Source: Gammaproteobacteria bacterium
Lineage (GTDB): Bacteria; Pseudomonadota; Gammaproteobacteria; Pseudomonadales; Azotimanducaceae
DNA: 42,372 nucleotides
Assembly (NCBI GenBank): GCA_026705345.1
Contig: JAPPAV010000087.1
Location: 1 to 42,372 of the forward strand
Reading direction: 5' to 3'
Shown: positions 11,165 through 40,745 of the stretch, one piece after another
How the letters are laid out: each line of letters opens with the position of its first letter
Position numbering within the stretch: the first letter of the stretch is position 1
Made by a program: the position numbers and the translations under genes
Notes under the pieces: model-generated
Told to the model about the DNA's origin: nothing
The model's input: only the letters and a program-made list of their open reading frames with translations
The model's database searches: none

Positions 11165-11166
11165 CC

Positions 11167-11191
11167 GGGACGGGACAAGCCCGTCCCCTAC
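11167..11191 (-). repeat. REP-like palindrome with GTAG foot (copy 1)
   Basis: Read on the minus strand: foot GTAG, arm GGGACGGG, loop CTTGT, arm CCCGTCCC, an 8-bp perfect stem. The GTAG foot directly before a hairpin is the hallmark of REP sequences recognised by RAYT transposases. TAG of the foot is the stop codon of the 212-aa gene 11188-11826. The copies at 15019 and 39470 share the foot and loop but differ in stem bases. Confidence 0.75.
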
Positions 11192-11826
11192 GAATCGACC
11201 GCCAGGAGCTTCAGGAAGTCCTTCTTCTGTTGTTCGGTCATCTCCTCGAAGATCGGAACCAGCATCTCGGTGACGGGCAGATCCGCGAACTCCGGTGACT
11301 GGGTCTGCATCGCCGCAGCGATGTTGTGCAACCCGTTGCCTTCTTCGGAGCCGGCCATCAAGGGACCGCTCACGTCGTCGGGCCAGTACATTTCGGAGGG
11401 CTGCTCCTCGCCATAGGGGTTCTCCCGTCCGACGTGCTTCTCGATCGCCGCGAGTAGCGCCTGCTGGCCCTCGCGCCGTTTGCGCCCGCCCTCCCGACCG
11501 TAGAACGCGCCGGATTGGTTGCAGATCGCGGCCCATCGCGCGCGGATATGAAAGCCGCGAACGGCCAAGGCTTCTTCCGGTTCGCCGTCACCGCCCCAGA
11601 TCTCGCCGTCTTTGACGATGATGTAGTAGCCGGCCTTCTCCCGTCCCCCTTCCATGAGGCGGTCAGGCGGATGCGTATAGCACTCCGTGAACGCCCATTC
11701 GAAATCCTTCGGCAGATCGGCCGCCTTGAGAATCTTGACCGCTGCTGCGGCACAGGCTTCGCCCCACTCCTTCGAACCGAATTCGCCTTCCTTTTTCAAG
11801 GTGGACATGTCAATCACGTAGGCCAT
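11188..11826 (-). CDS. Unrecognised 212-aa protein
   Basis: I do not recognise a family. The protein is soluble, charged and without signal peptide or membrane segment. The central part contains GYYIIVKDGEIWGGDGEP and FHIRARWAAICNQSGAFYGREGG. The C-terminal third is acidic and helical (TEMLVPIFEEMTEQQKKDFL). I chose the ATG at 11826 because upstream in-frame codons overlap the promoter region of the divergent pntA gene and look non-coding; the ATG at 11808 is an alternative. The stop codon TAG is formed by the foot of a REP element, so the last residues could have been trimmed by that insertion. It is transcribed toward the DUF1801 gene. Confidence 0.7.
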   Translation of the reverse strand: MAYVIDMSTLKKEGEFGSKEWGEACAAAAVKILKAADLPKDFEWAFTECYTHPPDRLMEGGREKAGYYIIVKDGEIWGGDGEPEEALAVRGFHIRARWAAICNQSGAFYGREGGRKRREGQQALLAAIEKHVGRENPYGEEQPSEMYWPDDVSGPLMAGSEEGNGLHNIAAAMQTQSPEFADLPVTEMLVPIFEEMTEQQKKDFLKLLAVDS

Positions 11827-11907
11827 TTCACACTCGCAAGTCTCCACAAACCCCCGCGACCGTAGCACACTCTCCCGAGACCATTGATCGCGAACCACCG
11901 ACCGGGT

Positions 11908-11936
11908 TTGTCGATTTTCACAGCTTCGGCTACTGT
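11908..11936 (+). promoter_or_regulatory. Candidate sigma-70 promoter of the pnt operon
   Basis: TTGTCG (11908-11913) and TACTGT (11931-11936) are separated by exactly 17 bases and lie about 50 bases before the pntAA start. The -10 element is a weak match, so this is a candidate only. Confidence 0.4.
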
Positions 11937-11986
11937 TGATCGTTGGCGTCGCCCGAGCGGGCGGCGCCGGCAGGGAGGTACAGCGA

Positions 11987-13150
11987 GTGAAGATAGCCGT
12001 GGTGCGGGAGTCGCGCCCGGGCGAGCACCGGGTTGCGTTGGTTCCCGAGTCGTGCGAGAAGTTGCGACGCGCGGGGTTCGGTGTCGCCATCGAGTCCGGT
12101 GCGGGCGTGGCCGCCGGGTACGACGACGACGCCTACCGGTCGGCGGATGCCGGAATCGAGACCGATGCCGAGTCGCTGGTGCAGTCGGCGGACATCCTTC
12201 TCACGGTCAATCCGCCTGCCAACCGCGATGGACGCGCGGCGCTCGACTGGATCAATCCCTCGACCATCGTCGTGGGCTCGCTGATGCCGCTGCGGGATCC
12301 ACGGCAGATGGAGGCCCTCGCCAAACGCGGCGCCACCGCCTTCTCCACCGACTCGATTCCGCGCACGACGCGCGCCCAGGCGATGGATACGCTGTCGTCC
12401 ATGAGCAGCGTCAGTGGCTACAAGGGCGTGCTACTCGCCGCCGTGGCGCTTCCCAAGTACCTGCCGATGCTGAGTTCGGCAGCCGGCACGGTCTTCGCGG
12501 CGAGGGTGTTCGTCATCGGGGCCGCCGTCGCCGGCCTCCAGGCCCTGGCGACGGCCAAGCGACTCGGTGCGACGGTGTCGGCGACCGATGTACGCCCCGA
12601 AGTCCAGGAGCAGATCGAGAGTGTCGGCGCGAGGTATGTTGGCGTCGAGCTAAAGAAAGACGCCTCGACCGGTGGCGGCTATGCCGGAGAACTCAGCGAG
12701 GAGGACCGAGAGCGTCAGCGGGAGATGCTCCTCGATGAGTTGGCGAAGTCGGACGTCGTCATCACCACCGCATTGATCGGCGGCGTCTTTGCGCCGAAGA
12801 TCATCACCCGCGAGATGGTCCGGTCGATGCGTCCCGGTTCGATCATCGTCGATCTCGCTGCCGACGGCGGCGGCAACTGTGAGCTGTCCGTGCCCGGCGA
12901 AGACGTCGAGGTCCGGGGCGTGCGCGTCATGGCACCCCTGAACCTGCCGGCGACGATGCCCGAACACGCCAGCCTGCTGTTCTCCAGGAATCTGACGAAC
13001 TTCGTCGAGGCGTTCTCGAAGGAGGGCGAATTCGAAGTCGACGCCGACGACGAGATCCAGGGCGAGTGCCTCATTGCCACGGACGGCGAGATCGTCCATG
13101 ACCGCACCCGCGACGCCTTGCGCGAATTGGTGAACGAGGCCACGTCATGA
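11987..13150 (+). CDS. pntAA: NAD(P) transhydrogenase subunit alpha part 1 (NAD-binding domain I)
   Basis: Soluble NAD(H)-binding subunit (387 aa) of the proton-translocating transhydrogenase. It passes hydride between NADH and NADP+ with PntB and so supplies NADPH from the proton gradient. The N-terminus MKIAVVRESRPGEHRVALVPE, the SMSSVSGYKGVLLAA block and AGTVFAARVFVIGAAVAGLQ are diagnostic. The length matches the separate domain-I subunit of the Rhodospirillum rubrum type. The start is GTG at 11987, with GGGAGG eight bases upstream; the frame from 11936 is longer but has no ribosome site. The nucleotide-binding glycine motif reads GAAVAG where GxGxxG is usual. The last four bases overlap the next gene as ATGA. 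Confidence 0.95.
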   Translation: MKIAVVRESRPGEHRVALVPESCEKLRRAGFGVAIESGAGVAAGYDDDAYRSADAGIETDAESLVQSADILLTVNPPANRDGRAALDWINPSTIVVGSLMPLRDPRQMEALAKRGATAFSTDSIPRTTRAQAMDTLSSMSSVSGYKGVLLAAVALPKYLPMLSSAAGTVFAARVFVIGAAVAGLQALATAKRLGATVSATDVRPEVQEQIESVGARYVGVELKKDASTGGGYAGELSEEDRERQREMLLDELAKSDVVITTALIGGVFAPKIITREMVRSMRPGSIIVDLAADGGGNCELSVPGEDVEVRGVRVMAPLNLPATMPEHASLLFSRNLTNFVEAFSKEGEFEVDADDEIQGECLIATDGEIVHDRTRDALRELVNEATS

Positions 13151-13575
13151 AACCCGATCGTTACCTGCCCCGATGGGCAATCGCGGTGCTCTCCGTGGCC
13201 GTCGGCGCAATCGGAATCGCCTTGGTAACCCAAACCGACGCGGCCTCCGTCGCGGAAACCGCGTCGTCCTCGAAAAACGCGGAAGGCGCCGTCGACTACT
13301 GGCCGATGGTGTTCGTCTTCCTTCTGTCCACGTTCATCGGTCTTGGTGTCATCCGCCGCGTGTCTCGGCTGCTTCATACGCCGTTGATGTCGCTCACCAA
13401 CGCGATCTCGGCGATCGCCGTCGTGGGGGCGATTCTCGTCGCGGGGCCCGATGTCCCGCCGACGATCCGACTGCTCGGCGGCATCGCCCTGTTTGCCTCG
13501 GTTACCAACATCGTCAGCGGGTTCCTCATCACCGACCGCATGCTGAAGATGTTCAAGCGGGACGATCCGTCATGA
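13147..13575 (+). CDS. pntAB: NAD(P) transhydrogenase subunit alpha part 2 (membrane domain)
   Basis: Small membrane subunit of the three-part transhydrogenase, 142 aa, forming part of the proton channel domain II. An N-terminal hydrophobic segment (WAIAVLSVAVGAIGIALVT) is followed by three helices beginning with the conserved FVFLLSTFIGLGVI. Then come TPLMSLTNAISAIAVVGAILV and the C-terminal SVTNIVSGFLITDRMLKMF. The length agrees with the PntAB type. It overlaps pntAA and pntB by ATGA at both ends, so the three genes are translationally coupled. Confidence 0.94.
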   Translation: MKPDRYLPRWAIAVLSVAVGAIGIALVTQTDAASVAETASSSKNAEGAVDYWPMVFVFLLSTFIGLGVIRRVSRLLHTPLMSLTNAISAIAVVGAILVAGPDVPPTIRLLGGIALFASVTNIVSGFLITDRMLKMFKRDDPS

Positions 13576-14984
13576 GCGCAGGTTGGGTCGAACTCTTCTA
13601 TCTCGTCGCCACGGCGCTGTTCATCTTCTCGCTGTATTGGATGAACGATCCCAAGACGGCACGCCGGGGCGTCGGCGCCGGGGCGTTGGCCATGCTGCTC
13701 GGCGTGGTCGCCACCTGGGCGCAGCCGTTCGTGGTCAACCACGGCTGGATGGTTCTCGCGGTCGTGGCGGGCATCGCGGTGGGCTATCCGCTGTCACGGG
13801 TCGCCCTGACGGCGGCCCCGCAACGGACGGCCCTGTCGCATGCCTTTGGCGGCCTCGCCGCAGCTCTGGTCGGCACCGCCAAGTACTACCTGTGGCTCGG
13901 CGAGGGCCCCGAGGAACTGACTACCTTTCGGATGGTGGCGATCATCGCCGAGGTCATTCTCGGCTGCATCACGTTCACCGGCAGCCTGTTTGCCGCGGGC
14001 AAGCTTCAGGAGCTTAAGTGGGTGCCCCAGCGCGCGGTCACCTACCCGCTGCAGAACGTGTTCAACATCGCCCTGCTGCTGGTCGCCATCGGCATCGGCA
14101 CATGGCTCGTGCTCAATCCGGCGGCACCGGTCGCGGCGTTGCTCTTTCCCGCGATAATCGTCATCGCGCTGATGTTCGGCATCCTGCTGATCGTTCCCAT
14201 CGGCGGCGCGGACATGCCGACGGTCATCGCCATACTCAACTCCTACGCCGGTCTTGCGGCGGTGGCGATGGGGTTCGTGCTCGAGAACAACCTGCTCATC
14301 ACGGCCGGGGCGCTCGACGGGTCGAGTGGTTTGATCCTCTCGATCATCATGTGCAAGGCGATGAACCGGTCGTATCTGAACGTGCTGTTCGGTGCCTTCG
14401 GGTCCGTTCCGCAGACCGCACCCGAGGGTGCCGAGCAAGGAGAGTACAAGGCGGATACGCCGCAGAGCGCCGCCCAGATCATGGAACAAGCCAACAGCGT
14501 CGTCATCATCCCCGGCTACGGGATGGCGGTGGCGCAGGCGCAGCACCGCGTGCGCGAACTCTACGACCACCTGAAGAAACGCGGCATCACGGTACACTTC
14601 GCCATTCATCCGGTCGCCGGACGCATGCCCGGTCATATGAACGTGTTGCTGGCCGAGGCCGACGTGCCCTATACGGATCTGGTCGAGATGGACGACGTCA
14701 ACCGGGACATGCCGCAGTGCGATGTCGCGCTGGTAATCGGCGCCAACGACGTCGTCAATCCAGCCGCGAACCTCGACGAGTCGAGCCCGATCTACGGAAT
14801 GCCCATCATCGAGGCAAGCAAGGCGCGGACGATCTTCGCCATCAAGCGGTCGAAGAACCCCGGCTTCGCCGGCATCGACAACGCCCTCTACTTCGACGAC
14901 AAGACCTGGATGCTGTTCGGCGATGCCAAGCAAGTCGTGGGCGAACTGAACAAGGAGCTCGCCGGGGAGTCGGCGACTCACTGA
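13572..14984 (+). CDS. pntB: NAD(P) transhydrogenase subunit beta
   Basis: Beta subunit (470 aa), with about nine membrane helices in the N-terminal 260 residues and a soluble NADP(H)-binding domain III. The membrane part includes GGADMPTVIAILNSYAGLAAVAMG. Domain III includes IIPGYGMAVAQAQHRV, HPVAGRMPGHMNVLLAEA and CDVALVIGANDVVNPAA, and later IFAIKRSKNPGFAG. All hallmark segments are intact. The ATG at 13572 overlaps the pntAB stop in ATGA; longer frames starting upstream are out of context. It is the last gene of the operon. Confidence 0.96.
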   Translation: MSAGWVELFYLVATALFIFSLYWMNDPKTARRGVGAGALAMLLGVVATWAQPFVVNHGWMVLAVVAGIAVGYPLSRVALTAAPQRTALSHAFGGLAAALVGTAKYYLWLGEGPEELTTFRMVAIIAEVILGCITFTGSLFAAGKLQELKWVPQRAVTYPLQNVFNIALLLVAIGIGTWLVLNPAAPVAALLFPAIIVIALMFGILLIVPIGGADMPTVIAILNSYAGLAAVAMGFVLENNLLITAGALDGSSGLILSIIMCKAMNRSYLNVLFGAFGSVPQTAPEGAEQGEYKADTPQSAAQIMEQANSVVIIPGYGMAVAQAQHRVRELYDHLKKRGITVHFAIHPVAGRMPGHMNVLLAEADVPYTDLVEMDDVNRDMPQCDVALVIGANDVVNPAANLDESSPIYGMPIIEASKARTIFAIKRSKNPGFAGIDNALYFDDKTWMLFGDAKQVVGELNKELAGESATH

Positions 14985-15018
14985 CCAATCAACGCCCCTG
15001 CATGGCGCAAACCCGGCC

Positions 15019-15043
15019 GAGGCAGAACAAGCCTGTCCCCTAC
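15019..15043 (-). repeat. REP-like palindrome with GTAG foot (copy 2, one arm decayed)
   Basis: Minus-strand reading: foot GTAG, arm GGGACAGG, loop CTTGT, then TCTGCCTC, which pairs only partly. The foot and loop are identical to copies 1 and 3. TAG of the foot ends the frame of the AraC-like remnant at 15040-15117. Confidence 0.55.
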
Positions 15044-15117
15044 CGCGCCCGGTAGGCTCCGGGCGTGATCCTCGGGTTTTGCTTGAACCAGCGCGTCAGG
15101 CGGGACTCGCGACAAGA
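15040..15117 (-). pseudogene. C-terminal remnant of an AraC-family regulator
   Basis: The last 25 codons read SRLTRWFKQ then TPGAYRAR, the usual end of an AraC/XylS-type DNA-binding domain (second helix-turn-helix). The preceding in-frame sequence to 15288 does not resemble the rest of such a domain and there is no room for a 250-300 aa regulator. I read it as a decayed gene tail, stopped by the TAG of a REP foot. Confidence 0.45.
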
Positions 15118-15199
15118 ATCCGCAGATCCCGGCAATGGCGGCCAGGGCCTGTGAACGTCCGTGCCGCCCTCCCCCACAGCCAGGCTCGGCACGACAACG

Positions 15200-15475
15200 T
15201 CAGCCGGCGTCTTCGCCTTCGACCTGACGGTGCATCGCCCGTCGTAGAAGATCGCGGTATTCGCGGATCTCGGCGTCCAACTCGTCAATCGCCATCTTGT
15301 CCGACTTGTCCCTAAACTCGCCGGCGGTGTTCGTCCAATCGTCGTACAGCACGTTCCGCTCCAAGACGAGATTGTCGGTCAGCGCCTCGATCGCCCGACA
15401 GAGTTCTTCGTAGGTTGGTTTGATCTCGGAATCCCCAACGACCTCCGAATCAGGTCCCAGGTTCAAATTCTGCAC
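15200..15475 (-). CDS. Small hypothetical protein (91 aa), unrecognised
   Basis: A GTG-started frame with amphipathic, acidic helical composition (YEELCRAIEALTDNLVLERN; later MAIDELDAEIREYRDLLRRA), as in a short coiled-coil or antitoxin-like helper protein. I recognise no family. No membrane segment is present, and the ribosome site before the GTG is weak. It stands alone between the AraC remnant and the regulator at 15721, which is transcribed the other way. It is more protein-like than its frame alternatives, but it may be spurious. Confidence 0.4.
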   Translation of the reverse strand: MQNLNLGPDSEVVGDSEIKPTYEELCRAIEALTDNLVLERNVLYDDWTNTAGEFRDKSDKMAIDELDAEIREYRDLLRRAMHRQVEGEDAG

Positions 15476-15720
15476 AGAGCACCACCACGCGATTTCGCCC
15501 AGACGATCGTCAAGGGACTACGGCAGTTCGATTAAACGCGTCTTCGGAACCTAGACAGGCGGTAGACCGGTGCCGTGCGTGGTCTCGCGAAGCGATTACC
15601 GTGGACTACCGAAATGGTGCGCGCTTTTTCGTCTCACCTGGCCGAATGAGCGAGGGTTTTGGGGGCAAAATGCCGTAGCACTGGACATTCAAACCACTGT
15701 TTCGGTAGTACACTGGTCGT

Positions 15721-18543
15721 TTGACGTTCGTTTCGATGCCGGGACGACGATTGGTGACGAAGATGGTTCCGACCGACGGCAAACAGATTTCGGAGCAGTC
15801 TGACCCCGAAGACTCCAGAAGGATCGCAGACTCGCCCACCCCGTGGTTGCTCACCCACAAGGTGCAGATTCCGGATGTCGTCGCTGGCTATGTCGGCCGA
15901 CCGGAACTGGAGAAGCGGTGTTCGCCGCTTAGCCGCCAGTTGACGGTGTTGCAGGCTCCCGGCGGCTTTGGCAAGACCGCGCTGCTCGCGCATTGTTGTA
16001 GTCGCCTGCGGGACAACGGCAGCATCGTTGCGTGGCTCGCGGTGGACGAAGAGGACGGTCCCGTCGCGATGGCGACCTACCTGACGGTCGCATTCGAGCA
16101 AGCGGGCATCACCACGTTCGATGCGGCCGGCCAATCGGCCGATGCCATGGCGACGGAGAGGGAGTCGGACACCCAAGCCGGGTACCGGGTCAACTTGCTG
16201 ATCCGTGCGATCGAGCGGCACGGGCAGCCCTGCCTGCTCGCCCTGGACGAACTCGAACGGCTGCGCGATACGCAAGCGGTGGAGGTGCTGAACACACTCC
16301 TCGGTCAATCTCCCGACAATCTGCGGTTTGCGATGGCGTTCCGGGAACGTCCGCCGGGCCTCGATATCGCCATGTTCCTCCTCGAGGGGCGCGGCCAAAC
16401 CATTACCGCCGAGGACCTCCGGTTTTCGTTGCCCGACATCGCGCGGTTCTTCGATACCGAGCTTTCACGTCGGGAACTCGCGACCGTTGCGGCAAGTTCG
16501 GCGGGCTGGCCGATAGCGCTTCGGATCTACCGCAACGCGGCGCCTGCGGCACCGCTAGACGACCCCGTGAGCGGAAAGGAGACGGTCGCCGCATGGATCG
16601 AGTCTCGGCTCTGGCGCGGCGTTCCGGACGAGGACCGGGAATTCATCCTGGACGTGTCCCTGTTCGACTGGATAGAGCCGGACCTAATCGACGAGGCGAC
16701 CGGCCAACGGCATTCGCGGCGCCGAATCGAGTCGATGGCATCTCTCGCCGGTCTGTTGCAAATCACCGGCAGCGGCAAGACGACCATGAAACTGCACCCC
16801 TTGATCCGGGAGTACTGCGCGAACAAGCTGTTTCGCGAGAATCCATCCCGGTTTCGGTCCGTCCACGCGGGCATCGCGCGAGGGCTTGCACGCCGGGGCC
16901 ATATCGAGGATGCCCTACGCCACAGCGCCGAAGCCGGCGACGCGCAGCTGACCGGTAAGATCGCCACCGACGCGGGCGGGGTCCACATCTGGATCGGTCG
17001 CGGATTCGACGCGCTGCGTGGGATGGACGGCTGGCTCACCCCGGATGCCATCGGGGCCTACCCGAGACTCGCGCTCATACGCTGTATCTTGCTCTCCCTG
17101 TCGGGTGACATGGATGGTGCGAGACGCGTCTATCAGCAGACGGCCATCGAAAGCGCCGGTTTTTCTCGGAGTCCTAGCGGCGACGAGGACCCGGAAATGA
17201 TGCGGGACCACCTGATCGTGCTCGGCCTGATGCTCGTCTTGAGTTGCAGTCCACTGTCGCGTTACGAACCGCTCGTCTCCACTGTCGCGGAAATCGCTCT
17301 CCAACCGGATACGGATCCTTTGCTGCGCGGGATCATCCGCTACGGGTTGTGCCTTGTCATGACCGAGAAGACCGAGTTCGAACGGGCCGCTGAGTGGGCC
17401 GAACGCGTCCGCGCGGACCTCCGCCAGCATACGCTCTACATCACGCCACATCTGGATTGCCAACTCGGCCTTGCGGCCATGGCGCAAGGCCGGACCGAGG
17501 ACGCGGCAAACCGTTACGGCAGGGCGCTGGAGCTGGCTCGCGTTGGCCATCTTGGCAACACGGGTACAGCCATGGTCGGCGAGCTCCTCATGACCGAATT
17601 GGAAGTGGAACGGAGCGCGCACACGCCGCGTCGCCACACGCCGGTGTCGCTTCGGCTACTCGGCGAGTGGGGCACGTGGTTCGATGTCTACGCCGCGAAT
17701 GCCGCCATCGCGATGGAACTCGCGCTTCGCGACCAGGGCATCGACCGCGCCTTGACCGTGTTGGAGACCTCCATGGATTTCGCGCGCGCCACGGAGCGCC
17801 CCGCCTTGATCACGTTCCTGTCGGCGCTGCGTGTTTCGGTGCTCACCATGGGCGACCGAGTCGACGAGGCGGCAGGAGCCTGGCGCAGCGAAGACCTTCC
17901 CCGCGAAGACGAAGACTGCGTGGACTTCAAGGCCTACCGGTGGCGCGAGGTCGAGGCCCTTGCGGAAGGGCGGTTGCGTCTGCTGATCGCGCAGGCGGAA
18001 TTCGACGCGGCTCGGCGCTTCGCGTCCCTCGTGAGGCAGGCGACCAATGAACGACGGCTGGTTCGAACGCACATGCGCATGCTGGTGCTGTCAATGCGAC
18101 TGGAGGTGCTCGCCGGCGAGCCGGAACGGGCGACAGAGCATCTCATAGCCTACCTCGCTCTATACGCGGATTCGGACTACCTCCGACCGCTGGCGAGGGA
18201 AAGAGGGCTTACGGCACCGATGCTGGATGCAATAGTCGATTCACAGGCCGCCCGGTCGATCATCGACACGGCCATCGAACTGCGCGACGCATTGGCGGCA
18301 CCCGACCAGTCGACACTGGATCAGTCGGAGCCGGCGCTGAGTTCCCGGGAAATCGAGGTGCTGCGACGTCTGGAGTCTCAATCGGACAAGATGATCGCGA
18401 AGGAACTCAACCTGAGCTACGACGGCGTTCGCTACCACGTGCGGAGGATATTCGCGAAACTGGGGGCACGCGGGAGATTTGACGCGGTACACCGCGCACG
18501 TGCGCTGCGTCTACTCCCCGCCGAAGATTCGCAGAACCTCTGA
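15721..18543 (+). CDS. MalT-like LuxR-family transcriptional regulator
   Basis: Large STAND-ATPase regulator (up to 940 aa). A short N-terminus leads into the P-loop APGGFGKTALLAH (about residues 79-91), followed by LLALDELERL as the likely Walker B. A long helical TPR-like sensor region fills roughly 380-860. A LuxR-type helix-turn-helix at about 877-938 begins LSSREIEVLRRLESQSDKMI and contains AKELNLSYDGVRYHVRRIF. The architecture matches MalT, which binds an inducer and ATP before activating transcription; the inducer here is unknown. The start is uncertain: TTG at 15721, ATG at 15736 and ATG at 15763 are all possible and none has a strong ribosome site. It precedes the Sel1 lipoprotein gene by about 98 bases and is a candidate regulator of that pair or of the neighbouring enzyme operons. 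Confidence 0.92.
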   Translation: MTFVSMPGRRLVTKMVPTDGKQISEQSDPEDSRRIADSPTPWLLTHKVQIPDVVAGYVGRPELEKRCSPLSRQLTVLQAPGGFGKTALLAHCCSRLRDNGSIVAWLAVDEEDGPVAMATYLTVAFEQAGITTFDAAGQSADAMATERESDTQAGYRVNLLIRAIERHGQPCLLALDELERLRDTQAVEVLNTLLGQSPDNLRFAMAFRERPPGLDIAMFLLEGRGQTITAEDLRFSLPDIARFFDTELSRRELATVAASSAGWPIALRIYRNAAPAAPLDDPVSGKETVAAWIESRLWRGVPDEDREFILDVSLFDWIEPDLIDEATGQRHSRRRIESMASLAGLLQITGSGKTTMKLHPLIREYCANKLFRENPSRFRSVHAGIARGLARRGHIEDALRHSAEAGDAQLTGKIATDAGGVHIWIGRGFDALRGMDGWLTPDAIGAYPRLALIRCILLSLSGDMDGARRVYQQTAIESAGFSRSPSGDEDPEMMRDHLIVLGLMLVLSCSPLSRYEPLVSTVAEIALQPDTDPLLRGIIRYGLCLVMTEKTEFERAAEWAERVRADLRQHTLYITPHLDCQLGLAAMAQGRTEDAANRYGRALELARVGHLGNTGTAMVGELLMTELEVERSAHTPRRHTPVSLRLLGEWGTWFDVYAANAAIAMELALRDQGIDRALTVLETSMDFARATERPALITFLSALRVSVLTMGDRVDEAAGAWRSEDLPREDEDCVDFKAYRWREVEALAEGRLRLLIAQAEFDAARRFASLVRQATNERRLVRTHMRMLVLSMRLEVLAGEPERATEHLIAYLALYADSDYLRPLARERGLTAPMLDAIVDSQAARSIIDTAIELRDALAAPDQSTLDQSEPALSSREIEVLRRLESQSDKMIAKELNLSYDGVRYHVRRIFAKLGARGRFDAVHRARALRLLPAEDSQNL

Positions 18544-18641
18544 ATCGCTAGATGGCAGGTCCGATTGCGGTACGACAGTCCCCGCACAGGGGCGTAATAT
18601 CAGAGCAACAAGGGCCGGAAGCGGGATTTCTCCGAACATCC

Positions 18642-20153: not shown

Positions 20154-20182
20154 CTGCGCCGCCGCGAACCTATGGGAAAACC

Positions 20183-21337: not shown

Positions 21338-21472
21338 TCGCCCCGTTTGTTGCGGCTCGCTCGCATGCCCGATTCGTCGAATGCTAGGGCAGGAGCGCTA
21401 CCTCTCGGCGCCAGCACCCTCGAACCAACGACCAGGCCTCCCTCGCTCGTGCCGCCAAGGGCGCGCTTCGTA

Positions 21473-21481
21473 TGCCATAAT
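21473..21481 (+). promoter_or_regulatory. Extended -10 promoter candidate for the oxygenase operon
   Basis: TGCCATAAT matches an extended -10 element (TG, one base, CATAAT) and lies 27 bases before the ATG at 21509. A clear -35 element is absent, as is common with extended -10 promoters. The gap 21338-21508 holds nothing else that I can identify. Confidence 0.4.
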
Positions 21482-21508
21482 TTCGAGGTTGCCGACTCCC
21501 GAGATGCC

Positions 21509-22783: not shown

Positions 22784-22798
22784 TCCCACGCGCTGCCC

Positions 22799-25101: not shown

Positions 25102-25103
25102 CA

Positions 25104-25132
25104 CCCCACCCTGGAGCCCTGGGGCGGTGGGG
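25104..25132. terminator. Hairpin between convergent genes
   Basis: CCCCACC (25104-25110) pairs with GGTGGGG (25126-25132) three bases after the TauD-type stop codon. There is no T tract, so it is only a possible bidirectional terminator between this operon and the convergent GH127-like gene. Confidence 0.35.
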
Positions 25133-25211
25133 GCTGGGGCCAGACGGCGAGGGCGCGTCCAGCGGGCGCGATCGGGTCGCCCCGCGAACGACGTCGCACT
25201 CCGAGTTTGGC

Positions 25212-26984: not shown

Positions 26985-27038
26985 CTGCTTCAACTCCGCC
27001 GGGAAGATGTCGCCAACTGTAGCCACTGCTCTCGAACC

Positions 27039-27063
27039 GGACAAATTCAGCGTTGTCCCCTAA
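27039..27063 (-). repeat. REP-like hairpin, TTAG variant
   Basis: Minus-strand reading: foot TTAG, arm GGGACAA, an eight-base loop CGCTGAAT, arm TTGTCC (six pairs). It shares TAGGGGACA with the GTAG elements but has a different loop. It sits between the divergent GH127-like and PhyH genes. Confidence 0.4.
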
Positions 27064-27176
27064 GGCGGCTTCTCGACCGACACACGCCCGAGTTTTGGGT
27101 GAACACCGTCAAGCGGCCACCGTCGTCAGACGCGCCTAGGCGATAAAATCCCACCGTCAGAACTTGGAGGGCAAAC

Positions 27177-27845: not shown

Positions 27846-27855
27846 CGTCGCCGTC

Positions 27856-29241: not shown

Positions 29242-29331
29242 CGCGGAAACAGCACCTCCTGCAGGGAACGCTCTGTTAGCATTCCGTCGCGGTTGAATTT
29301 CGATCCGACTCTATCCTAGTACGCGGGTTTC

Positions 29332-30666: not shown

Positions 30667-30777
30667 GGTTGTCGCCCCCGGAAACGCCCGTACCTATGCG
30701 ACGGTATGATTCGAACAGGTCGAGGCCGCGTTGTCCGTGGCAGGCCGAGTTCAGCCAACGGGGCCGTTAGTCTGGGA

Positions 30778-32349: not shown

Positions 32350-32369
32350 CACAGACCCAGGACAGTCGC

Positions 32370-32759
32370 ATGGCACGAGAGCCGGTTCCCATCAAGTTTC
32401 CACCCGACAAGCCCCTGGCCGAACGCTTCGCCCGCGCCGTCGAAATCGCGCTACGGTTCCCCGGCGTCCAGGAAAGTCGCAGCTACGGCACGCCCGCGAT
32501 CAAGGTGAAGCGCAAACTCCTGGCTCGACTGCGTTCCGAGGCGGAAGGCGGCCTCGCCATCGTGTGCGACTTCATGGAACGCGAAATGCTGATGCAGGCG
32601 GCCCCGGAGACCTTCTACATCACCGACCACTACGCCGACTGGCCCATGGTGTTGATCAACCTGGAAACCGTGCGTTGGGACGCCATGCCCGACATCCTCG
32701 AGCGGGCGTGGCGCCGCGTGGCCACGCCGACACTGATCAAGCAATACGAGGCGCGCTAG
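32370..32759 (+). CDS. MmcQ/YjbR-like protein
   Basis: A 129-aa small protein resembling the MmcQ/YjbR family, which has a CyaY-like fold and has been linked to DNA binding. Typical segments are RFPGVQESRSYGTPAIKVKRKLLARL and the closing WRRVATPTLIKQY. It starts 20 bases after the SLC13 gene and is probably co-transcribed. The function of the family is not settled. Confidence 0.82.
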   Translation: MAREPVPIKFPPDKPLAERFARAVEIALRFPGVQESRSYGTPAIKVKRKLLARLRSEAEGGLAIVCDFMEREMLMQAAPETFYITDHYADWPMVLINLETVRWDAMPDILERAWRRVATPTLIKQYEAR

Positions 32760-32864
32760 CCCCGACCAGGTTGCTGCCCGCTGCCGTGGACCGAAGTCCG
32801 CTCGATTCGTACGCAAGACACCCAAGCTTGTCTTCGGCAACAGATTCGTTTCTCATGGTGTCCC

Positions 32865-34283
32865 ATGGGGGATGAGATTCGCCAACGCCACTTCAATGCG
32901 GAGGACTTCAGTCGTTTCCGACGCCGGCTGGATGCCGAGACGGATCTCGTCGCGGAACTTTTCCACGACAATACGCTCAGTCGGCGTGGCGACATTGTCG
33001 GTTTCGAGCTCGAGGCATGGATCGTCGATGCCGATGGCCAGCCCCATGCGCAGAACCAACAGTTGATCGAACACGTCGGCAATCCGCTGGTCGTTCCGGA
33101 ACTCGCTGCATTCAACGTCGAACTGAACGGTTCGCCCACGGCATTGTCCGGAAACGTCTTCTCGCGGATCGACGACGAACTGTCCGCCACCTGGGCCATG
33201 TGCCGCCAGGGAGCGGCGGATCTCGGTTGCCGCCTGGTCACCGTCGGTATCCTGCCGACCATCCGGCCGGATCTTCTGAACTCGAATTACATGTCGGCCA
33301 TGGTGCGCTACCAAGCGCTGAACGATCGCGTACTCGCGTTGCGCGACGGCGCACCGCTGCACATCCGCATCACCACCGGCGATGGTCTCGACATGACCCA
33401 CGACGACGTGATGCTCGAGGCGGCAACGACGTCCTTCCAAATACACCTGCAATGCAAGCCGGAACGCGCGGTGCGCGACTTCAACGCCGCGATCGTCGCG
33501 TCGGCCCCGATGGTCGCTCTGGCCGCGAATTCCCCCTTCCTCTTCGGGCGCTCGCTGTGGGAGGAGACCCGCATACCGCTCTTCGAGCAAGCCGTCGCCG
33601 CGGGTCCCCGCACGCCGGCGCGGGTCACGTTCGGCACGGGCTATGCTCAATCGTCGCTAGTCGAGATCTTCCGTGAGAACCAGAACGATCACGTGATCCT
33701 GCTGCCCTTCGTGCAAGCGGACGAACCGCCGCACAAGTACGCCCACGTTCGATTCCAGAACGGCACCGTCTGGCGTTGGAACCGGCCACTGCTCGGTTTC
33801 GATTTCGACGGCCAGCCGCATTTGCGTATCGAGCACCGGGTGGTGCCGGCAGGACCCACGATTCACGACTGCGTCGCCAACGCCGCCGCCTGGCTCGGCA
33901 TGGTCCGCGGCCTGGTGGACCGGGACGATCCCATCGAGACGAGGATCGGCTTCGAGACAGCCAAGAGCAACTTCTACGCGGCGGCGAAGTTCGGACTGGA
34001 CGCGCCGCTCACTTGGGTCGGCGGCGTTGAGCGTTCGGCGCGCGAGTTGCTCGCCGACGAACTGCTACCCCTTGCCGCAGAGGCCCTCGGCAAACGCGAT
34101 ATTCCGGATGCCGAGGTCAAGCGCTACATCGGCACAGCGCAGGCGCGCGTGGAACGGGATCGCACCGGGGCGCGCTGGCAGCGCGCCTGGGTGGCCAAGC
34201 ACGGCACCGACTGGGCCGCCTTGACCCGGGCCTACGCCGATGCCCAGGACAGCGGCGAACCGGTGCACGAGTGGCCTGTGTGA
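32865..34283 (+). CDS. Glutamate-cysteine ligase-like (GCS2 / carboxylate-amine ligase) protein
   Basis: A 472-aa ATP-dependent ligase of the GCS2 (YbdK-like) fold. The N-terminal DIVGFELEAWIVDADGQP carries the family's Gly-x-Glu-x-Glu-type signature, and AFNVELNGSPTAL and MTHDDVMLEAATTSFQIHLQ follow. Enzymes of this fold join an amino group to the gamma- or alpha-carboxylate of glutamate-like acids. Whether this one makes gamma-glutamylcysteine or another amide cannot be decided. The ATG at 32865 is preceded by no strong ribosome site; the frame begins there. It is followed by an AstE/AspA-type amidohydrolase, which points to a make-and-break pathway for an acylated amino acid. Confidence 0.82.
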   Translation: MGDEIRQRHFNAEDFSRFRRRLDAETDLVAELFHDNTLSRRGDIVGFELEAWIVDADGQPHAQNQQLIEHVGNPLVVPELAAFNVELNGSPTALSGNVFSRIDDELSATWAMCRQGAADLGCRLVTVGILPTIRPDLLNSNYMSAMVRYQALNDRVLALRDGAPLHIRITTGDGLDMTHDDVMLEAATTSFQIHLQCKPERAVRDFNAAIVASAPMVALAANSPFLFGRSLWEETRIPLFEQAVAAGPRTPARVTFGTGYAQSSLVEIFRENQNDHVILLPFVQADEPPHKYAHVRFQNGTVWRWNRPLLGFDFDGQPHLRIEHRVVPAGPTIHDCVANAAAWLGMVRGLVDRDDPIETRIGFETAKSNFYAAAKFGLDAPLTWVGGVERSARELLADELLPLAAEALGKRDIPDAEVKRYIGTAQARVERDRTGARWQRAWVAKHGTDWAALTRAYADAQDSGEPVHEWPV

Positions 34284-34285
34284 AC

Positions 34286-34329
34286 GCGACCGCTGCGCGG
34301 TCGCCCGAGAATTCGCTACGCGAATTCTC
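34286..34329. repeat. Two adjacent perfect palindromes
   Basis: The first hairpin is GCGACCG (34286-34292), loop CTGCG, CGGTCGC (34298-34304). The second is GAGAATTCGC (34307-34316), loop TAC, GCGAATTCTC (34320-34329), a 10-bp stem. They lie between the GCS2 stop and the AstE/AspA start, close to a ribosome site, so they could form an mRNA structure that separates expression of the two genes. They are not of the GTAG REP type. Confidence 0.7.
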
Positions 34330-34389
34330 CACCGGGACATGCAAACAACCGTGGCGCGGTTTGGGCCCCGGTTTGTGCAAGGGAGGCCT

Positions 34390-35358
34390 ATGCGCCTGAA
34401 CGTCGCCAACGTCTTGCCGGACTCCCTGGCCGACGTGCCGGCGACCGCGCTCGCCGACGAACTGGGCGGCCCGACGCTGTTCGACTTGCGCAAGGGAAGC
34501 CATGCGCCGCTGTTCGTATCGGTGTTGCTTCACGGCAACGAGGTCTCCGGTTGGGATGCGGTCCGGGGATTGCTTGGCGACTTCTGCGATGTGTCCGCGT
34601 TGCTGTTTGTTGCCAACGTCGACGCGGCGCGAGAAGGCGTCCGCGCCCTCCCGGGACAGGTCGACTTCAATCGGGTCTGGGAAGGCGGCAACACCGCCGA
34701 AGCGGCGGTTGCCGCCGAGCTTACCGCCTTCGTCGCCGGGGCGAACCCCTATCTCGCTGTCGATATTCACAACAATACGGGGCAGAACCCGCCGTACTCC
34801 GTGATCTGCCGCGCGGATCCTCGGACCCTCGAGTTCGCCGGCGCGTTCGCCCAACGGGTGTTGCTGGCCAGCCAGCCTGGCGGGTTCCAGACCCGCCGCT
34901 TTACGCGCTTCTGTACGGCGGTGACGGTCGAGGTGGGGACGCCCGACGACCCGGAAAGCACGACCCGCGCATCGGAGTTTCTTGCGAAGTTGCTTGGCAA
35001 CTATCCCGAACCACCTGCCGAGACCTGGAATCCCGAGACACTGTCGTTGTTCGAAACGGTTGCCCGGGTCACGGTCACCGACACCACCGAGATCGAACCG
35101 GCCATGCAGCGTTTCAACTTCCGGAGCGCCCCGGCGGGCACCGCGCTAACCCGAAGCGGTCCATTGAGCGCGCAGGCGGCGGACGGAACGCCTATTGGCA
35201 GCCGTTACTTCACCTCGGACGGCAACACGGCCGTTCTAACGCGTCCAACGATTCTTGCCATGTACACGCGCGACTTAGAGAGCGCCCGGCGGGACTGCCT
35301 CTGCTACTTCTTGGAACCCCTCGAAACCAGGCCCGACGCGAGCCCCAGCGCTGCCTGA
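34390..35358 (+). CDS. Succinylglutamate desuccinylase/aspartoacylase (M14) family hydrolase
   Basis: A 322-aa zinc amidohydrolase that releases acyl groups from N-acyl amino acids. Zinc ligands H48 and E51 are in LLHGNEVSGWD and H127 in AVDIHNNTGQNPP. The general base E181 is in TVEVGTPDD. The ATG at 34390 has GGGAGG four to nine bases before it; the longer frame from 34240 overlaps the palindromes and is not credible. It forms a gene pair with the GCS2-type ligase and ends four bases from the convergent dehydrogenase-SelD gene. Confidence 0.87.
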   Translation: MRLNVANVLPDSLADVPATALADELGGPTLFDLRKGSHAPLFVSVLLHGNEVSGWDAVRGLLGDFCDVSALLFVANVDAAREGVRALPGQVDFNRVWEGGNTAEAAVAAELTAFVAGANPYLAVDIHNNTGQNPPYSVICRADPRTLEFAGAFAQRVLLASQPGGFQTRRFTRFCTAVTVEVGTPDDPESTTRASEFLAKLLGNYPEPPAETWNPETLSLFETVARVTVTDTTEIEPAMQRFNFRSAPAGTALTRSGPLSAQAADGTPIGSRYFTSDGNTAVLTRPTILAMYTRDLESARRDCLCYFLEPLETRPDASPSAA

Positions 35359-35362
35359 AGCT

Positions 35363-37528
35363 TCAGACGACGATTTCGAGGCCAGCGGGGGTGACCGCCC
35401 CGACGACGGCGGCCGTCGCATAGCCTTCGCGGCGTAGCGCCTGCACGCAATCTCCCGCCGCCGGGCCGGGTATGCCCGCCAACAACCCTCCCGATGTCTG
35501 GGGATCGGCCAGCAAGCGTAGCGCGGGCGCATCGGGTGCGCCGCCTCGGTTCTCGTAGTCCTCCAACGCCTGCTGGTTGTTCTCCTGGAGAGAGCTTTCG
35601 ACACCCGACGCCATCAGCTCGAGGGCGCCGGGCAGGATCGGCACGTCGTTCACCCGGAGGATTGCGCCCGTGCCGGACGCGCGCGTCATCTCGGACAGGT
35701 GGCCGGCTAGCCCAAACCCCGTGACGTCCGTGCACCCCCGCGCACCGTGTTCGCGCAATACCTCGGCGGCAGCGGCGTTGGAGCGGTCCATGAGATCGAT
35801 GGCCCCAAGCAGATGTTCGGCCCTCGTACGACCCTCCATGGCCCCGGCGAGCAACGTTCCCGTGCCGAGGGCAGCGGTAAGCACCAACGCCTCACCGGGA
35901 CTCAGTCCGCCCTTGGTCAGCGGCTCGCGAACAAGCGTTCCCGTGACGCTGAACGCCACTCCGAGTTCGCCACCCTCAGCGGAGTGGCCGCCGACGAGAT
36001 CGACGCCGTGGGCGGTGAACACGTCGAGGGCACCCGACATCACCTGGTAGAGATCCTCCTCCATCATTCGGTCCGCCATCAGCGGCACGGTCGCGATGGC
36101 CAGGGCGAACTTGGGTTGTGCACCCATGGCAAAGAGATCGTTCAGCGCATGATGGGCACTGATGCGGCCGAACCGGTAGGTGTCGTCGATCATCGCCCGG
36201 AATCCGTCGCAACTCACCGCCAGGTTCCCTTGCGAGACCTGCACGACGGCCGCGTCCTCGCCGATGCCCAACAGCGTCGTTGGCGACTGGGGAACATCAA
36301 GACGACGGAGTACGGCGTTGAGACTGCCGGCACCTAGTTTCGCCCCGCAACCACCGCATCGCATGGACGGCGGCAGTTCTTCCTGCAACGAGGACGAAAC
36401 TTCAACGGCTTCCTCGGACATCTCTGGCAAATCATTGAATTTGCGCATGAACCTGCGGTCAATCCACTGCTTGAGGAACCAAACCCACCTCCCGGCCGCG
36501 TAGCGCCCCCCACGGTTCGCGACTGCGGTTCCGGTACCGAGCCCGACGATCGCCATGGCATGGCGCTGCGCCCGGAAGCGACGCAACCTCCGACCGGTGG
36601 CGAAACGCCTCAGGTTCTCCGCCAGCACGGGACCTTGGCGAACCGCGTACACGCCGGCCTTGGGACGCGGCCCGGCACCCAAATGCGCCACGTCCCCCGC
36701 GGCAAATATCTCGGCGTGCGACGTGGACTGGAGGTATTCGTTCACCGAGACGAAGCCTCGTGAATCCGTATCGATACCGGCATCGGCGAACCAAGCCGGG
36801 GCTTCGACGCCCGTTGTCCAGAGTGCATGATCGATGCTGATCGACGTGTCCCCCGCGAGGAGTTCTCCCTCTCGTGCCCCGGTGACCCGCGCCCCCGTCA
36901 CCACGGAAACGCCGCGTTTGCGAAGCGCGTCCTCCAGCCGCCGCCGGGGCTTGTCTGCGAAACCACCCAGGATCTTGTCCTCGCCGTCCACGAGAGTGCA
37001 GCGCGTGCCTGGATAGCGGTGATTGATCGCCAGCGCCAACTCGACTCCGCCCGGTCCGGCCCCGACGATACCCAGGCTGCGCGGCGGCGCGCCGTTGGCG
37101 GTGAGTTCCTCCCAAACCGGAATGAACCGGCCGATCGGCTTGACCGGCGTCACGAACTCCGAGGCAAATCGCTCGCCGGGAACGCCCCCGGTGTTGATGG
37201 CCAGCACGTCGTAGCGGAGCGGGGGGCGGTCGGCGAACAGAATGCGATGTTCGGTCGCGTCGATGCCCGTCGCCTCCGCGGCGATGAACCGCGCCTTCGC
37301 AAACCGGGCGAGCTTCGCCAAGTCGATGTGGATTTCGTCCCAGTCGTAGACACCCGCAACATACCCCGGGAGCATTCCGGTGTACGGCGAATGCGGCTCC
37401 CGGGCGACGATCGTCAACCGAAGGCCCGGTTCCGGTCGCATTCCCAGCCGCTTCAATACCTGGACGTTGGCATGTCCGCCGCCCAAGAGCACGATATCGC
37501 GGAGCGGCGGTGGGTCTGCTGACTTCAT
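35363..37528 (-). CDS. selD: FAD-dependent NADH-dehydrogenase-like protein fused to selenophosphate synthetase (SelD)
   Basis: A 721-aa two-domain protein. Residues 1 to about 375 are a type-II NADH dehydrogenase-like flavoprotein: FAD motif LLGGGHANVQVL, second nucleotide motif GIVGAGPGGVELAL, and EIFAAGDVAHLG. Residues from about 388 are SelD: the catalytic cysteine is C394 with K397 in CGGCGAK, and LGIGEDAAVV, MGAQPKFALAIATVPL, GGHSAEGGELGVAFSVTG and TDVTGFGLAGHL follow. SelD makes selenophosphate from selenide and ATP. The catalytic residue is TGC-encoded cysteine, not selenocysteine. Both halves look complete, so the flavin part may deliver reduced selenide. No SelA, SelB or SelU is in the window. 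Confidence 0.93.
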   Translation of the reverse strand: MKSADPPPLRDIVLLGGGHANVQVLKRLGMRPEPGLRLTIVAREPHSPYTGMLPGYVAGVYDWDEIHIDLAKLARFAKARFIAAEATGIDATEHRILFADRPPLRYDVLAINTGGVPGERFASEFVTPVKPIGRFIPVWEELTANGAPPRSLGIVGAGPGGVELALAINHRYPGTRCTLVDGEDKILGGFADKPRRRLEDALRKRGVSVVTGARVTGAREGELLAGDTSISIDHALWTTGVEAPAWFADAGIDTDSRGFVSVNEYLQSTSHAEIFAAGDVAHLGAGPRPKAGVYAVRQGPVLAENLRRFATGRRLRRFRAQRHAMAIVGLGTGTAVANRGGRYAAGRWVWFLKQWIDRRFMRKFNDLPEMSEEAVEVSSSLQEELPPSMRCGGCGAKLGAGSLNAVLRRLDVPQSPTTLLGIGEDAAVVQVSQGNLAVSCDGFRAMIDDTYRFGRISAHHALNDLFAMGAQPKFALAIATVPLMADRMMEEDLYQVMSGALDVFTAHGVDLVGGHSAEGGELGVAFSVTGTLVREPLTKGGLSPGEALVLTAALGTGTLLAGAMEGRTRAEHLLGAIDLMDRSNAAAAEVLREHGARGCTDVTGFGLAGHLSEMTRASGTGAILRVNDVPILPGALELMASGVESSLQENNQQALEDYENRGGAPDAPALRLLADPQTSGGLLAGIPGPAAGDCVQALRREGYATAAVVGAVTPAGLEIVV

Positions 37529-37570
37529 CGAACGCGGCTTAAGCGAACGCCCGCCGAAGTCGCATCAGGG

Positions 37571-38182
37571 CTAGTGGTGGTGCTTCTGTGGTCTAGACGC
37601 CTCGCCTCGACCGGGGAAGTTGATCAGGCAGCCGATGGCTGCGACCGACCGAACGGCAGGTTCCTCGCCAGCCAACACCGCGTTGACGGCATCGACGACG
37701 TAGTGGCTGTCCGCCTTTTCGCGTTGGCGTTCGTAGACCAAGCGATCGTTGATGGGTCCCCGGTAGGCAATGGACCGCGACCGCGCGTCGATGACCAGGA
37801 CCTCCGCCGTACGCGTCAAGGCCAGGGCCTTCCCGACCTCCTGGGTATCGTCCACCAGGATGGGCAGATCGATACCCCATTCTTCGGCTTCCGCGCGAAT
37901 GGACGCCGGATCGTCCTGCAGGTTCGAATTGATCATCAGGAACCGGACCGGATCGCCCCCGAAGTGCTCCCGCACGGATGCGAGATCGATCAGCGCGTTG
38001 CGCACGATCGGGCAACCGTTGCCCTGCACCATGAGCACGACCACCTTCGCGTTCCCATCGTCGAAGAGCCCACGGTCAGCCCCGGACTGGTCCGCCAGCG
38101 TGAAGCCGTCGACCGGCTTGGCCGAAACCGTCGTCGCCAACAACGCGGCAACCACCGCAAAGAGGGAGAGACGATGGGACAT
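37571..38182 (-). CDS. Exported redoxin-domain protein with His-rich C-terminus
   Basis: A 203-aa protein with an N-terminal signal peptide (LSLFAVVAALLATTVSA) and a thioredoxin-fold peroxiredoxin-like domain. VVVLMVQGNGCPIVRNAL contains cysteine 57, and FLMINSNLQDD, LPILVDDTQEVGKAL and the SIAYRGPINDR stretch are typical of redoxins. A second cysteine, C185 in AIGCLINFP, precedes a tail ending in KHHH. It is likely a periplasmic thiol or metal-handling protein. The ATG at 38182 gives the signal peptide; the frame continues upstream over the MFS gene but that part is a shadow. It lies 42 bases before the SelD fusion on the same strand. Confidence 0.8.
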   Translation of the reverse strand: MSHRLSLFAVVAALLATTVSAKPVDGFTLADQSGADRGLFDDGNAKVVVLMVQGNGCPIVRNALIDLASVREHFGGDPVRFLMINSNLQDDPASIRAEAEEWGIDLPILVDDTQEVGKALALTRTAEVLVIDARSRSIAYRGPINDRLVYERQREKADSHYVVDAVNAVLAGEEPAVRSVAAIGCLINFPGRGEASRPQKHHH

Positions 38183-38235
38183 GCCGAGGGTCCGTTGGGT
38201 TTGGCCGCGAGTATAGCAGCCGCCACCCCGATCCA

Positions 38236-39420
38236 TCAGGTGCCGGGTCGACCTGTGGCGTACCACCGCCGGGTCCACACCAACACGAACATGGTCGCCA
38301 AAACCGGCGGTATCGACGCCCACAGCACGGCGTGCCAGCCGAATAGCTGGATCACCACACCCGCACTCAGCGACCCGATGGCCGAGAGTCCGAACACACT
38401 GAAGTCGTTGACGGCCTGGGCGCGAAACCTCTCCGCCGGCCGGTGTGCGCCGGCAAGCAGCGTGGTGCCACCGATGAACAGGAAGTTCCAGCCAATGCCC
38501 AGGGCCACCATCGATGCGCCGTAGTGGAGCACCTCGCGGCCGAGGAATCCGATGACTACCATCACGCAGAAGATCGCAGTGCCCGTGAGCATCACCCTTC
38601 CGGGGCCAAATCTGCCGATCAACGCGCCCGTGAACAGCGAGGGGAGATACATCGCGAGGACGTGTGCTTGAACCACGGCTGCGGCGGTAGCGAGTGGGTG
38701 ACCATCCGAGACATGCATCGCTAGCGGTGCCGCGGTCATCACGAATACCATCACCCCCTGCCCGACCGCCGCACCCAGTACCGGCACGACAAAGATCCAT
38801 CGGCCGACCATTTCGCCCAAGGGGCGAATCTCCCCGGTCTTTGGCGCGTGGGTTTGCGGCCCGCCTTCGCGCAGCATTAGCAATAGGGCGCTAGCAATCA
38901 CGTAGCAGACCGCGATTCCCAGGAAGGTGCCGGCAAACGGCGCACCGCCAATCCAGGACTCCCCGCGCACCGCGAGTTCCGGCCCGAGCATGGCGCCGGC
39001 GATGGACCCCAGGAGGATCACGGACACCGCCTGTGCGGCATAGGCCTCGCGAACGCTTTCCGCAGCCGCGAAGCGGTATTGCTGCGAGAACGCCGCGGCG
39101 AACCCCACGAACAACCCGCCAAGACAAAACGTCGAGAAACTCGCGGTTGTCATCGCCACGATCGAGATCAATGCGCCTACCAGTCCCAGCCCAGCACCGC
39201 AGGCAAAACCGCGAGCACGGCCAATCTTTGACATCGACCACGCAGCCGGAACGGTGGCCATGGCGGTCCCCACTACGAACAACGACAGAGGCAGCGTCGA
39301 CAACGCCGGCGTCGGGGCCAGCACGCGACCCACGATCCCGCCCAACGTCACAAGCGAGATCGTCGCGGTGATCGCGATCATCTGCGCAACGAGCAGGATC
39401 GCGATGTTGCGTTTCAGCAA
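38236..39420 (-). CDS. MFS transporter
   Basis: A 394-aa major facilitator superfamily protein with twelve hydrophobic segments in two halves. The first half carries a basic loop (SMSKIGRARGFACG) after helix 2, and the second half has TGALIGRFGPGRVML at the matching place, as in the family. The long middle loop is REGGPQTHAPKTGEIRPLGEM. The substrate is not predictable. It precedes the redoxin gene by 53 bases on the same strand, and the REP-like hairpin and dinB end lie upstream. Confidence 0.9.
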   Translation of the reverse strand: MLKRNIAILLVAQMIAITATISLVTLGGIVGRVLAPTPALSTLPLSLFVVGTAMATVPAAWSMSKIGRARGFACGAGLGLVGALISIVAMTTASFSTFCLGGLFVGFAAAFSQQYRFAAAESVREAYAAQAVSVILLGSIAGAMLGPELAVRGESWIGGAPFAGTFLGIAVCYVIASALLLMLREGGPQTHAPKTGEIRPLGEMVGRWIFVVPVLGAAVGQGVMVFVMTAAPLAMHVSDGHPLATAAAVVQAHVLAMYLPSLFTGALIGRFGPGRVMLTGTAIFCVMVVIGFLGREVLHYGASMVALGIGWNFLFIGGTTLLAGAHRPAERFRAQAVNDFSVFGLSAIGSLSAGVVIQLFGWHAVLWASIPPVLATMFVLVWTRRWYATGRPGT

Positions 39421-39469
39421 CTCGGCAAGGATTGGTCCGCCTCCGGTTTTTCGGCCTAGCCTAAACGAC

Positions 39470-39494
39470 GGGACACCACAAGGGTGTCCCCTAC
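39470..39494 (-). repeat. REP-like palindrome with GTAG foot (copy 3)
   Basis: Minus-strand reading: foot GTAG, arm GGGACACC, loop CTTGT, arm GGTGTCCC, an 8-bp perfect stem. The foot and loop match copies 1 and 2, and the stem differs with compensating changes. TAG of the foot is the dinB stop codon. Confidence 0.75.
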
Positions 39495-40714: not shown

Positions 40715-40726
40715 CCGCCCAAGATA

Positions 40727-40742: not shown

Positions 40743-40745
40743 TTT

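Follow-up and report, generated by a model that had tools for sequence, protein, structure and literature searches.

We here deal with repetitive extragenic palindromic (REP) hairpins in a gammaproteobacterium of the family Azotimanducaceae. They were noticed in contig JAPPAV010000087.1 of assembly GCA_026705345.1 (positions 1 to 42,372 of the forward strand; this whole stretch of 42,372 nucleotides is called the window), where the hairpin foot, GTAG, can share its TAG with the stop codon of the gene upstream. The exact coincidence of foot and stop is genuine and general across the sampled members of the genus. As judged from the sequences, it is probably in the main a coincidence of target sites: REPs guided by GTAG would land at TAG stops that already exist, instead of having a habit of making stops. 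A minority of insertions seems to have changed the end of the protein. The overlap itself has been known since 2013, when Di Nocera, De Gregorio and Rocco wrote that GTAG REP termini “often provide” a TAG stop, there called “opal” (PMC3733652); the rule, of which the initial annotation knew no description, is thus not undescribed. New here are mainly the numbers and the likely cause. Landing at existing stops would account for the old remark without any stop-making activity.

The hairpins were counted in 729 kb of the genome of this bacterium (G000; 5.07 Mb in 151 contigs). The stretches were chosen mostly for holding REPs, so that the occupancy of sites and the share of TAG are inflated in this sample. 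Genes were called with our own Markov model, trained on G000 and applied to the congeners too. A strict REP pattern has 240 matches genome-wide, its reversed control none. Of 171 REP cores in the sample, 159 have the foot GTAG; the 12 others were kept apart. The core is built of GTAG, an 8-nt arm, CTTGT and a second 8-nt arm, and its stem varies by compensatory changes: the arm pair GGGACGGG/CCCGTCCC occurs 92 times, GGGCGACC/GGTCGCCC 25 times and GGGCGGGG/CCCCGCCC nine times, besides rarer pairs. Only 4 of the 159 GTAG-footed copies overlap called genes. By their sequence the hairpins are GTAG-tagged REP elements, and a predicted REP-associated transposase lies nearby.

The excess of feet lying exactly at stops is established by counting. 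In a strict set of 102 copies, 67 have a same-strand gene upstream: 26 at its stop, none 1–12 nt behind it, 17 at 13–60 nt and 24 beyond; 32 others follow an opposite-strand gene, two have no gene on the left and one lies inside a gene. The wider set of 159 copies behaves alike. A same-strand gene precedes 102 of them, with 36 at the stop (37 with a copy that overlaps an opposite-strand call), none at 1–12 nt, 29 at 13–60 nt and 37 beyond, while 50 follow an opposite-strand gene and four lie inside genes. The congeners replicate the pattern. There, in 80 loci and after 11 copies near locus ends had been dropped, 24 of 76 copies sit at the stop, one at 1–12 nt, 21 at 13–60 nt and 30 beyond; the remainder comprises 50 copies after an opposite-strand gene, three in a same-strand gene, two in an opposite-strand gene and four without a gene on the left. 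Against a uniform distribution over 0–60 nt, 26 of 43 copies at distance zero in the strict set correspond to p ~1e-35, and the congeners yield p ~1e-30; the species compared are kin, and these p-values are therefore rough. The empty interval of 1–12 nt was considered as a feature needing a cause of its own and rejected, as the sample has only five GTAG sites there, two of them followed by remnants.

Could the excess be produced by the gene caller? In a GC-rich genome the TAG of a foot might simply close chance open frames, the caller is home-made, and one frame in the window (ending at 15040, see below) is such a case. The near absence of copies just behind stops speaks against this artefact, and so do conserved protein ends, which match those of REP-free relatives in ArgJ and other proteins. 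The explanation is largely refuted and must be regarded as very improbable.

The abundance of landing sites has to be considered next to the excess. In the G000 sample REPs occupy 3 of 3460 GTAG sites in coding DNA and 37 of 114 at stops. Downstream of stops the figures are 0/5 at 1–12 nt, 28/54 at 13–60 nt, 32/116 at 61–300 nt and 5/71 farther away; after opposite-strand genes they are 53/315. Samples from arbitrary places were taken for G004, G007, G008, G011, G012 and G013. In the 200 kb from G004, REPs occupy 6 of 20 GTAG sites at stops, 17 of 141 in other non-coding DNA (p 0.04) and 2 of 1004 in coding DNA. From the former two values it follows that REPs have at most a modest special preference for stops, and that the effect is in large part due to GTAG being available at gene edges. 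GTAG stops close 11–17% of the genes in these six congeners. As they are so common in the genus, the TAG with which a gene ends would offer the REP a target close at hand, at the border of that gene.

The same occupancies bear on a functional explanation, by which selection would keep hairpins at stops because they tune termination, message stability or ribosome release. REPs not more than 15 nt from a stop are said to lower translation in Escherichia coli, according to work cited in PMC12306157, and one and the same stop can bear different hairpin types from species to species (genes 6, 15 and 32). Selection for such a function, however, does not fit well with an occupancy of GTAG stops that exceeds that of other non-coding sites modestly at most (6/20 versus 17/141 in G004; 37/114 versus 28/54 at 13–60 nt in G000), nor with the mere remnant present at 45 of 131 orthologous stops. 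We consider this explanation quite unlikely.

Comparison also settles that REPs go along with no higher use of TAG. Its share of the stops is 29/80 in G013, 21/54 in G012 and 28/75 in G007, which have no copies, and 23/64 in G008, which has one; in REP-rich G004 it is 47/143, in G011 54/145. In percent, the four congeners with at most one copy are at 36–39%, G004 at 33% and G011 at 37%. The idea that REPs raise TAG use was accordingly rejected, the share being equal with and without them. Within 350 kb from E. coli K-12 there are 42 GTAG-footed REP-like sites, 31 of them with an open reading frame (ORF) of at least 90 codons ending not more than 200 nt upstream. The foot is at the stop in only 1 of the 31, and that ORF is absent from the annotation of the record. 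GTAG stops are rare in this species, closing 4 of 178 ORFs of at least 300 codons; the scarcity of feet at stops there is in line with landing at existing stops.

Whether the stop or the REP came first can be judged from orthologues. These were searched with three chimeric C-terminal queries. The counts exclude G000 genes with a score below 15 or a length below 240 nt, orthologues of less than 75% identity, all but the best match per genome, alignments more than 20 residues short of the end, and loci that break off upstream of the stop or shortly behind it. For 33 genes with a REP at the stop, five close congeners yielded 131 cases: 23 with a REP, 45 with a remnant and 63 with neither. A “remnant” is defined by a pattern rule, and a disrupted hairpin persists in some rows counted as empty (q102, q312, q361, q379). 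The 63 REP-free orthologues end with TAG in 41 cases, TGA in 14 and TAA in eight. Among controls, ordinary TAG genes of G000 without a REP have orthologues with TAG 36, TAA 10 and TGA 5 times (n=51); TGA genes have TGA 92, TAG 9 and TAA 2 times (n=103); TAA genes have TGA 11, TAA 10 and TAG 6 times (n=27). When only REP-free orthologues of equal length are taken, 25 of 32 have TAG. TAG is the majority stop among the empty orthologues of 18 of 28 REP-stop genes, with 33% expected (p 0.0007), and of all four genes whose site is private to G000, i.e., whose close relatives have neither REP nor remnant. In a tree of 66 gene ends G002 is the sister of G000, followed by G004, G003, G006 and G011.

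Single sites lead to the same order of events. The end of ArgJ is conserved, and G002, G003 and G006 keep ACG-TAG with no REP at the stop. The downstream 60 nt are intact and common to G002 and G003, and G003 branches outside G004 and the pair G000/G002; by parsimony, this GTAG is older than the REP copies in G000 and G004. At q457 the sister G002 has CCGTAG, with downstream sequence that can be aligned to G004; G004 and G011 have CCT-TAG and G006 has CGT-TAG. The site of copy 1 in the window (see below), with TAG but no REP in G002 and G006, tells in favour of this order too. At several sites, parsimony of this kind makes TAG the predecessor of the REP, and the stop appears mostly to be the older partner where this is testable.

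A considerable body of data weighs against this order of events. TGA or TAA is found in 22 of the 63 REP-free orthologues, and the REP-free orthologues of eight G000 TAG genes that have only a remnant show TAG 11, TGA 9 and TAA 3 times (n=23). GTAG occurs in 26 of the 63, and is no commoner than in the orthologues of ordinary TAG genes (19/51). The C-terminal length differs in 31 of the 63 (20 longer, 11 shorter), compared with 6/51 and 21/103 in the TAG and TGA controls; in one of the 63 (q440 in G006) the difference is 128 residues, and the ends probably do not truly correspond. Among empties of equal length the last residue is identical in a fraction of 0.62, versus 0.91 and 0.82 in the TAG and TGA controls, the TAA controls being at 0.60 as well (n=20). 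At q315 three relatives with the same end residue have the stops TGA, TGA and TAA. In CoaE the REP copy of G000 supplies the TAG, and G002 and G003 end seven residues later with TGA, G004 and G011 two and four residues earlier. Gene 32 has the short hairpin in G000 and a hairpin with a long loop at the same codon in G003 and G009; G004 bears the short hairpin, G002 a bare GTAG one codon further on. This shift of the bare TAG by one codon slightly lowers the odds of landing at a pre-existing stop. Nor is there a depletion of free CCGTAG stops in G000 (10 in the sample) in comparison with low-copy congeners (5/273). Moreover, excision of a doublet leaving about 6 bp has been reported (PMC3116915), and could leave GTAG at sites that are now empty. 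Clean empty sites for REPs away from stops were too few or too diverged in the relatives compared.

These data feed the most serious competitor, which postulates a REP that brings CC-GTAG along and may insert at any place near the end of a gene; a TAG that happens to be in frame then serves as a new stop and alters the end of the protein, and no other insertions are retained. CoaE is in favour of it, and the frequent differences in length and the last residue, less conserved than in the TAG and TGA controls, point in the same direction. So does the sequence before the foot. The base at position -1 of GTAG is C in nearly all listed copies, be they at stops or elsewhere, and proline is the last residue of 22 of 37 REP-stop proteins in the G000 sample, compared with 10–16% in others. 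The lack of a depletion of free CCGTAG stops makes it probable that CC often comes with the element; the REP thus probably often carries its own bases before GTAG, and sometimes a new stop. A C-terminal proline, combined with a stop hairpin, might delay termination.

As a general explanation, however, the making of new stops meets difficulties. Without selection, copies in the other frames should lead by 2 to 1, yet the G000 sample has only one copy read through in a same-strand gene versus 37 that are in the stop frame, and the congeners have three versus 24. The 41 of 63 empties that already have TAG, the unraised TAG use of REP-rich congeners and the lack of the pattern in E. coli tell against it too. 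We regard it as rather unlikely. The initial annotation had left two readings side by side, an insertion behind an existing TAG and an inserted REP that supplies the stop and trims the protein. The former is the better supported at most testable sites, and the latter seems to occur as well, as in CoaE. The comparison of orthologues lacking the REP, which it had suggested, gave a correspondingly mixed answer.

How would an insertion at an existing stop come about? REPs are non-autonomous elements, often arranged as inverted doublets, known as bacterial interspersed mosaic elements (BIMEs) or REP doublets forming hairpins (REPINs). Their mobility is presumably due to the REP-associated tyrosine transposase (RAYT) of their own genome, with GTAG acting as the guide tetranucleotide of the element. 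New copies would settle at an existing TAG, often within GTAG, in dispensable DNA, and copies landing inside genes would be removed by selection. An element at a TAG stop would merely abut the end of the gene and hardly damage the protein. Upon insertion, the bases in front of GTAG seem to be shifted towards CC, by which the last codon would be altered, often to CCG (proline). Three parts of this scheme are inferred: what the transposase does, how the strand is transferred, and that GTAG or TAG serves as target as well as foot. A stronger version, in which the TAG stop is the preferred safe landing site of GTAG-guided REPs in genomes rich in TAG stops, and hairpin types replace one another there with little change beyond the last codon, is tentative and may well be wrong. 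If it were true, species with more frequent GTAG stops should also have a larger proportion of their REPs at stops. Should the tetranucleotide of the foot serve as target too, stop-codon usage would help to decide where the most abundant repeats sit, and this can be counted across species.

In the window itself, the initial annotation had listed three GTAG-footed hairpins on the minus strand. The positions and feet are correct for all three; the fold is present in two. Copy 1 (11167–11191) has the 8-bp stem GGGACGGG/CCCGTCCC and copy 3 (39470–39494) the stem GGGACACC/GGTGTCCC, both perfect and with the loop CTTGT. They fold with -10.1 and -9.0 kcal/mol, respectively, and shuffled sequences did equally well in 0/200 and 1/200 cases. 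Copy 2 (15019–15043) is decayed: its stem is lost and 75/200 shuffles fold equally well. The identity of the foot with a gene's stop, claimed for all three, likewise holds for copies 1 and 3. The TAG of copy 2 (15040–15042) closes an open frame that is no called gene; no ORF of at least 100 amino acids and no same-strand gene of our model ends at 15040, and a Pfam search with pieces of the frame gave no match at E 1, so that a certain resemblance to AraC is at best tentative. The suspicion that the coincidence exceeds chance, founded on three of three, is thus reduced to two of three in the window, but turned out right in the larger samples, where the proposed count over further copies showed the excess (36/102 and 24/76).

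The stop shared with copy 1 (TAG at 11188–11190, minus strand) closes a minus-strand gene at 11188–12090, which encodes 300 amino acids from the first ATG or, in our gene model, 212 from a start at 11826; no Pfam family matched it. G000 reads TCGTAG followed by the REP at this site, G002 and G006 ATGTAG without a REP, G011 ATGTAG with a remnant and G004 GTGTGA. Directly 3' of copy 1, at 11147–11166 on the minus strand, lies a companion hairpin, GGCGCGCCC..GGGCGCG. The same companion, often followed by GAGAATGCT, recurs directly 3' of many REP copies. The stop shared with copy 3 (TAG at 39491–39493, minus strand) belongs to a minus-strand gene at 39491–40912 for an IMS-family (DNA polymerase IV-like) protein of 473 amino acids, starting with GTG; none of five relatives compared has the same end residue.

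A second type of GTAG-footed hairpin has a long loop, GGGCGACC-CTAACGCGCCC..GGGCGCG-C-GGTCGCCC (e.g., in loci L084, L176 and L181). It sits at stops where other species bear the short CTTGT hairpin, which looks like an exchange of the loop in place; over all sequences 17 such copies were counted. Both types occur at the stop of gene 6 across species; gene 15 has the short hairpin in G000, the long-loop one in G002 and a bare GTAG in G004.

The G000 sample contains 23 clusters with outward feet, the aligned pairs measuring ~80 nt, and in two of them the feet at either end coincide with stops of convergent genes. Between the convergent genes 21 and 22 a doublet occupies the entire gap, both feet being stops; this is the same in G002 and G004, and in G003 the hairpin of one foot is slightly altered. 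Locus L066 (C49:8555-14672) has an inverted doublet at ~2500–2580 that spans the whole gap of convergent genes with both feet as stops, and a doublet is present there in G002, G003 and G004.

Five Y1-transposase matches were found in G000. One of them, at C29:82860-83183, is embedded in a REP cluster, with REPs at 82661 and 83428. It matches PF01797 with 37.2 bits (cut-off 23), and NCBIfam REP_Tyr_transpos with 72.5 bits, below the cut-off of 80. The TAG stop of this transposase gene is itself a REP foot (L031, 1372–1374, minus strand). Beside the gene, at C29:82279-82684, five REP copies are spaced by 95–96 nt. Two more Y1-transposase-like proteins (L032, L033) are of another type, and their stops have no REP. 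The exact 26-base repeat is also present in other gammaproteobacterial metagenome-assembled genomes among the matches listed; judging by their names, such isolates may come from sponges.

In the open literature, as far as its text was accessible and including PMC2817692, PMC3686654 and PMC6006769, no rate or empty-site analysis of the overlap between REPs and stops was found; Rocco 2010 on Stenotrophomonas repeats is outside this scope. The closest relatives of our elements are probably to be sought in the GTAG-tagged REP superfamily (PMC3733652), which shares the short palindrome, the unpaired GTAG end, the high copy number and the mostly extragenic position near gene 3' ends. Stem, loop and host differ, and the passages considered there give no rate of overlap, null or empty-site test. 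The group 3 TnpA-REP systems or REPtrons of Stenotrophomonas maltophilia and Marinomonas (PMC8266576) have a perfect stem and a short loop as well, and here, too, a RAYT is located amid REPs. In that group, GTAG is linked to the choice of a CT or CA cleavage site, as described in the same paper, which calls the mechanism of REP dissemination poorly understood. What differs here is that the TAG stop of the host coincides with the guide, and that the predicted transposase is known from sequence alone. REPINs or BIMEs as described by Bertels and Rainey 2011 (PMC3116915) are inverted pairs with outward feet like ours; their excision was seen by sequencing, whereas our evidence is comparative. The IS200/IS605 elements of the IS608 type, as presented in PMC8266576, finally resemble our REPs in being placed 3' of a short fixed tetranucleotide. 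In REPs, in contrast, GTAG is the guide of the element itself, and its additional use as a target is what the present comparison suggests.

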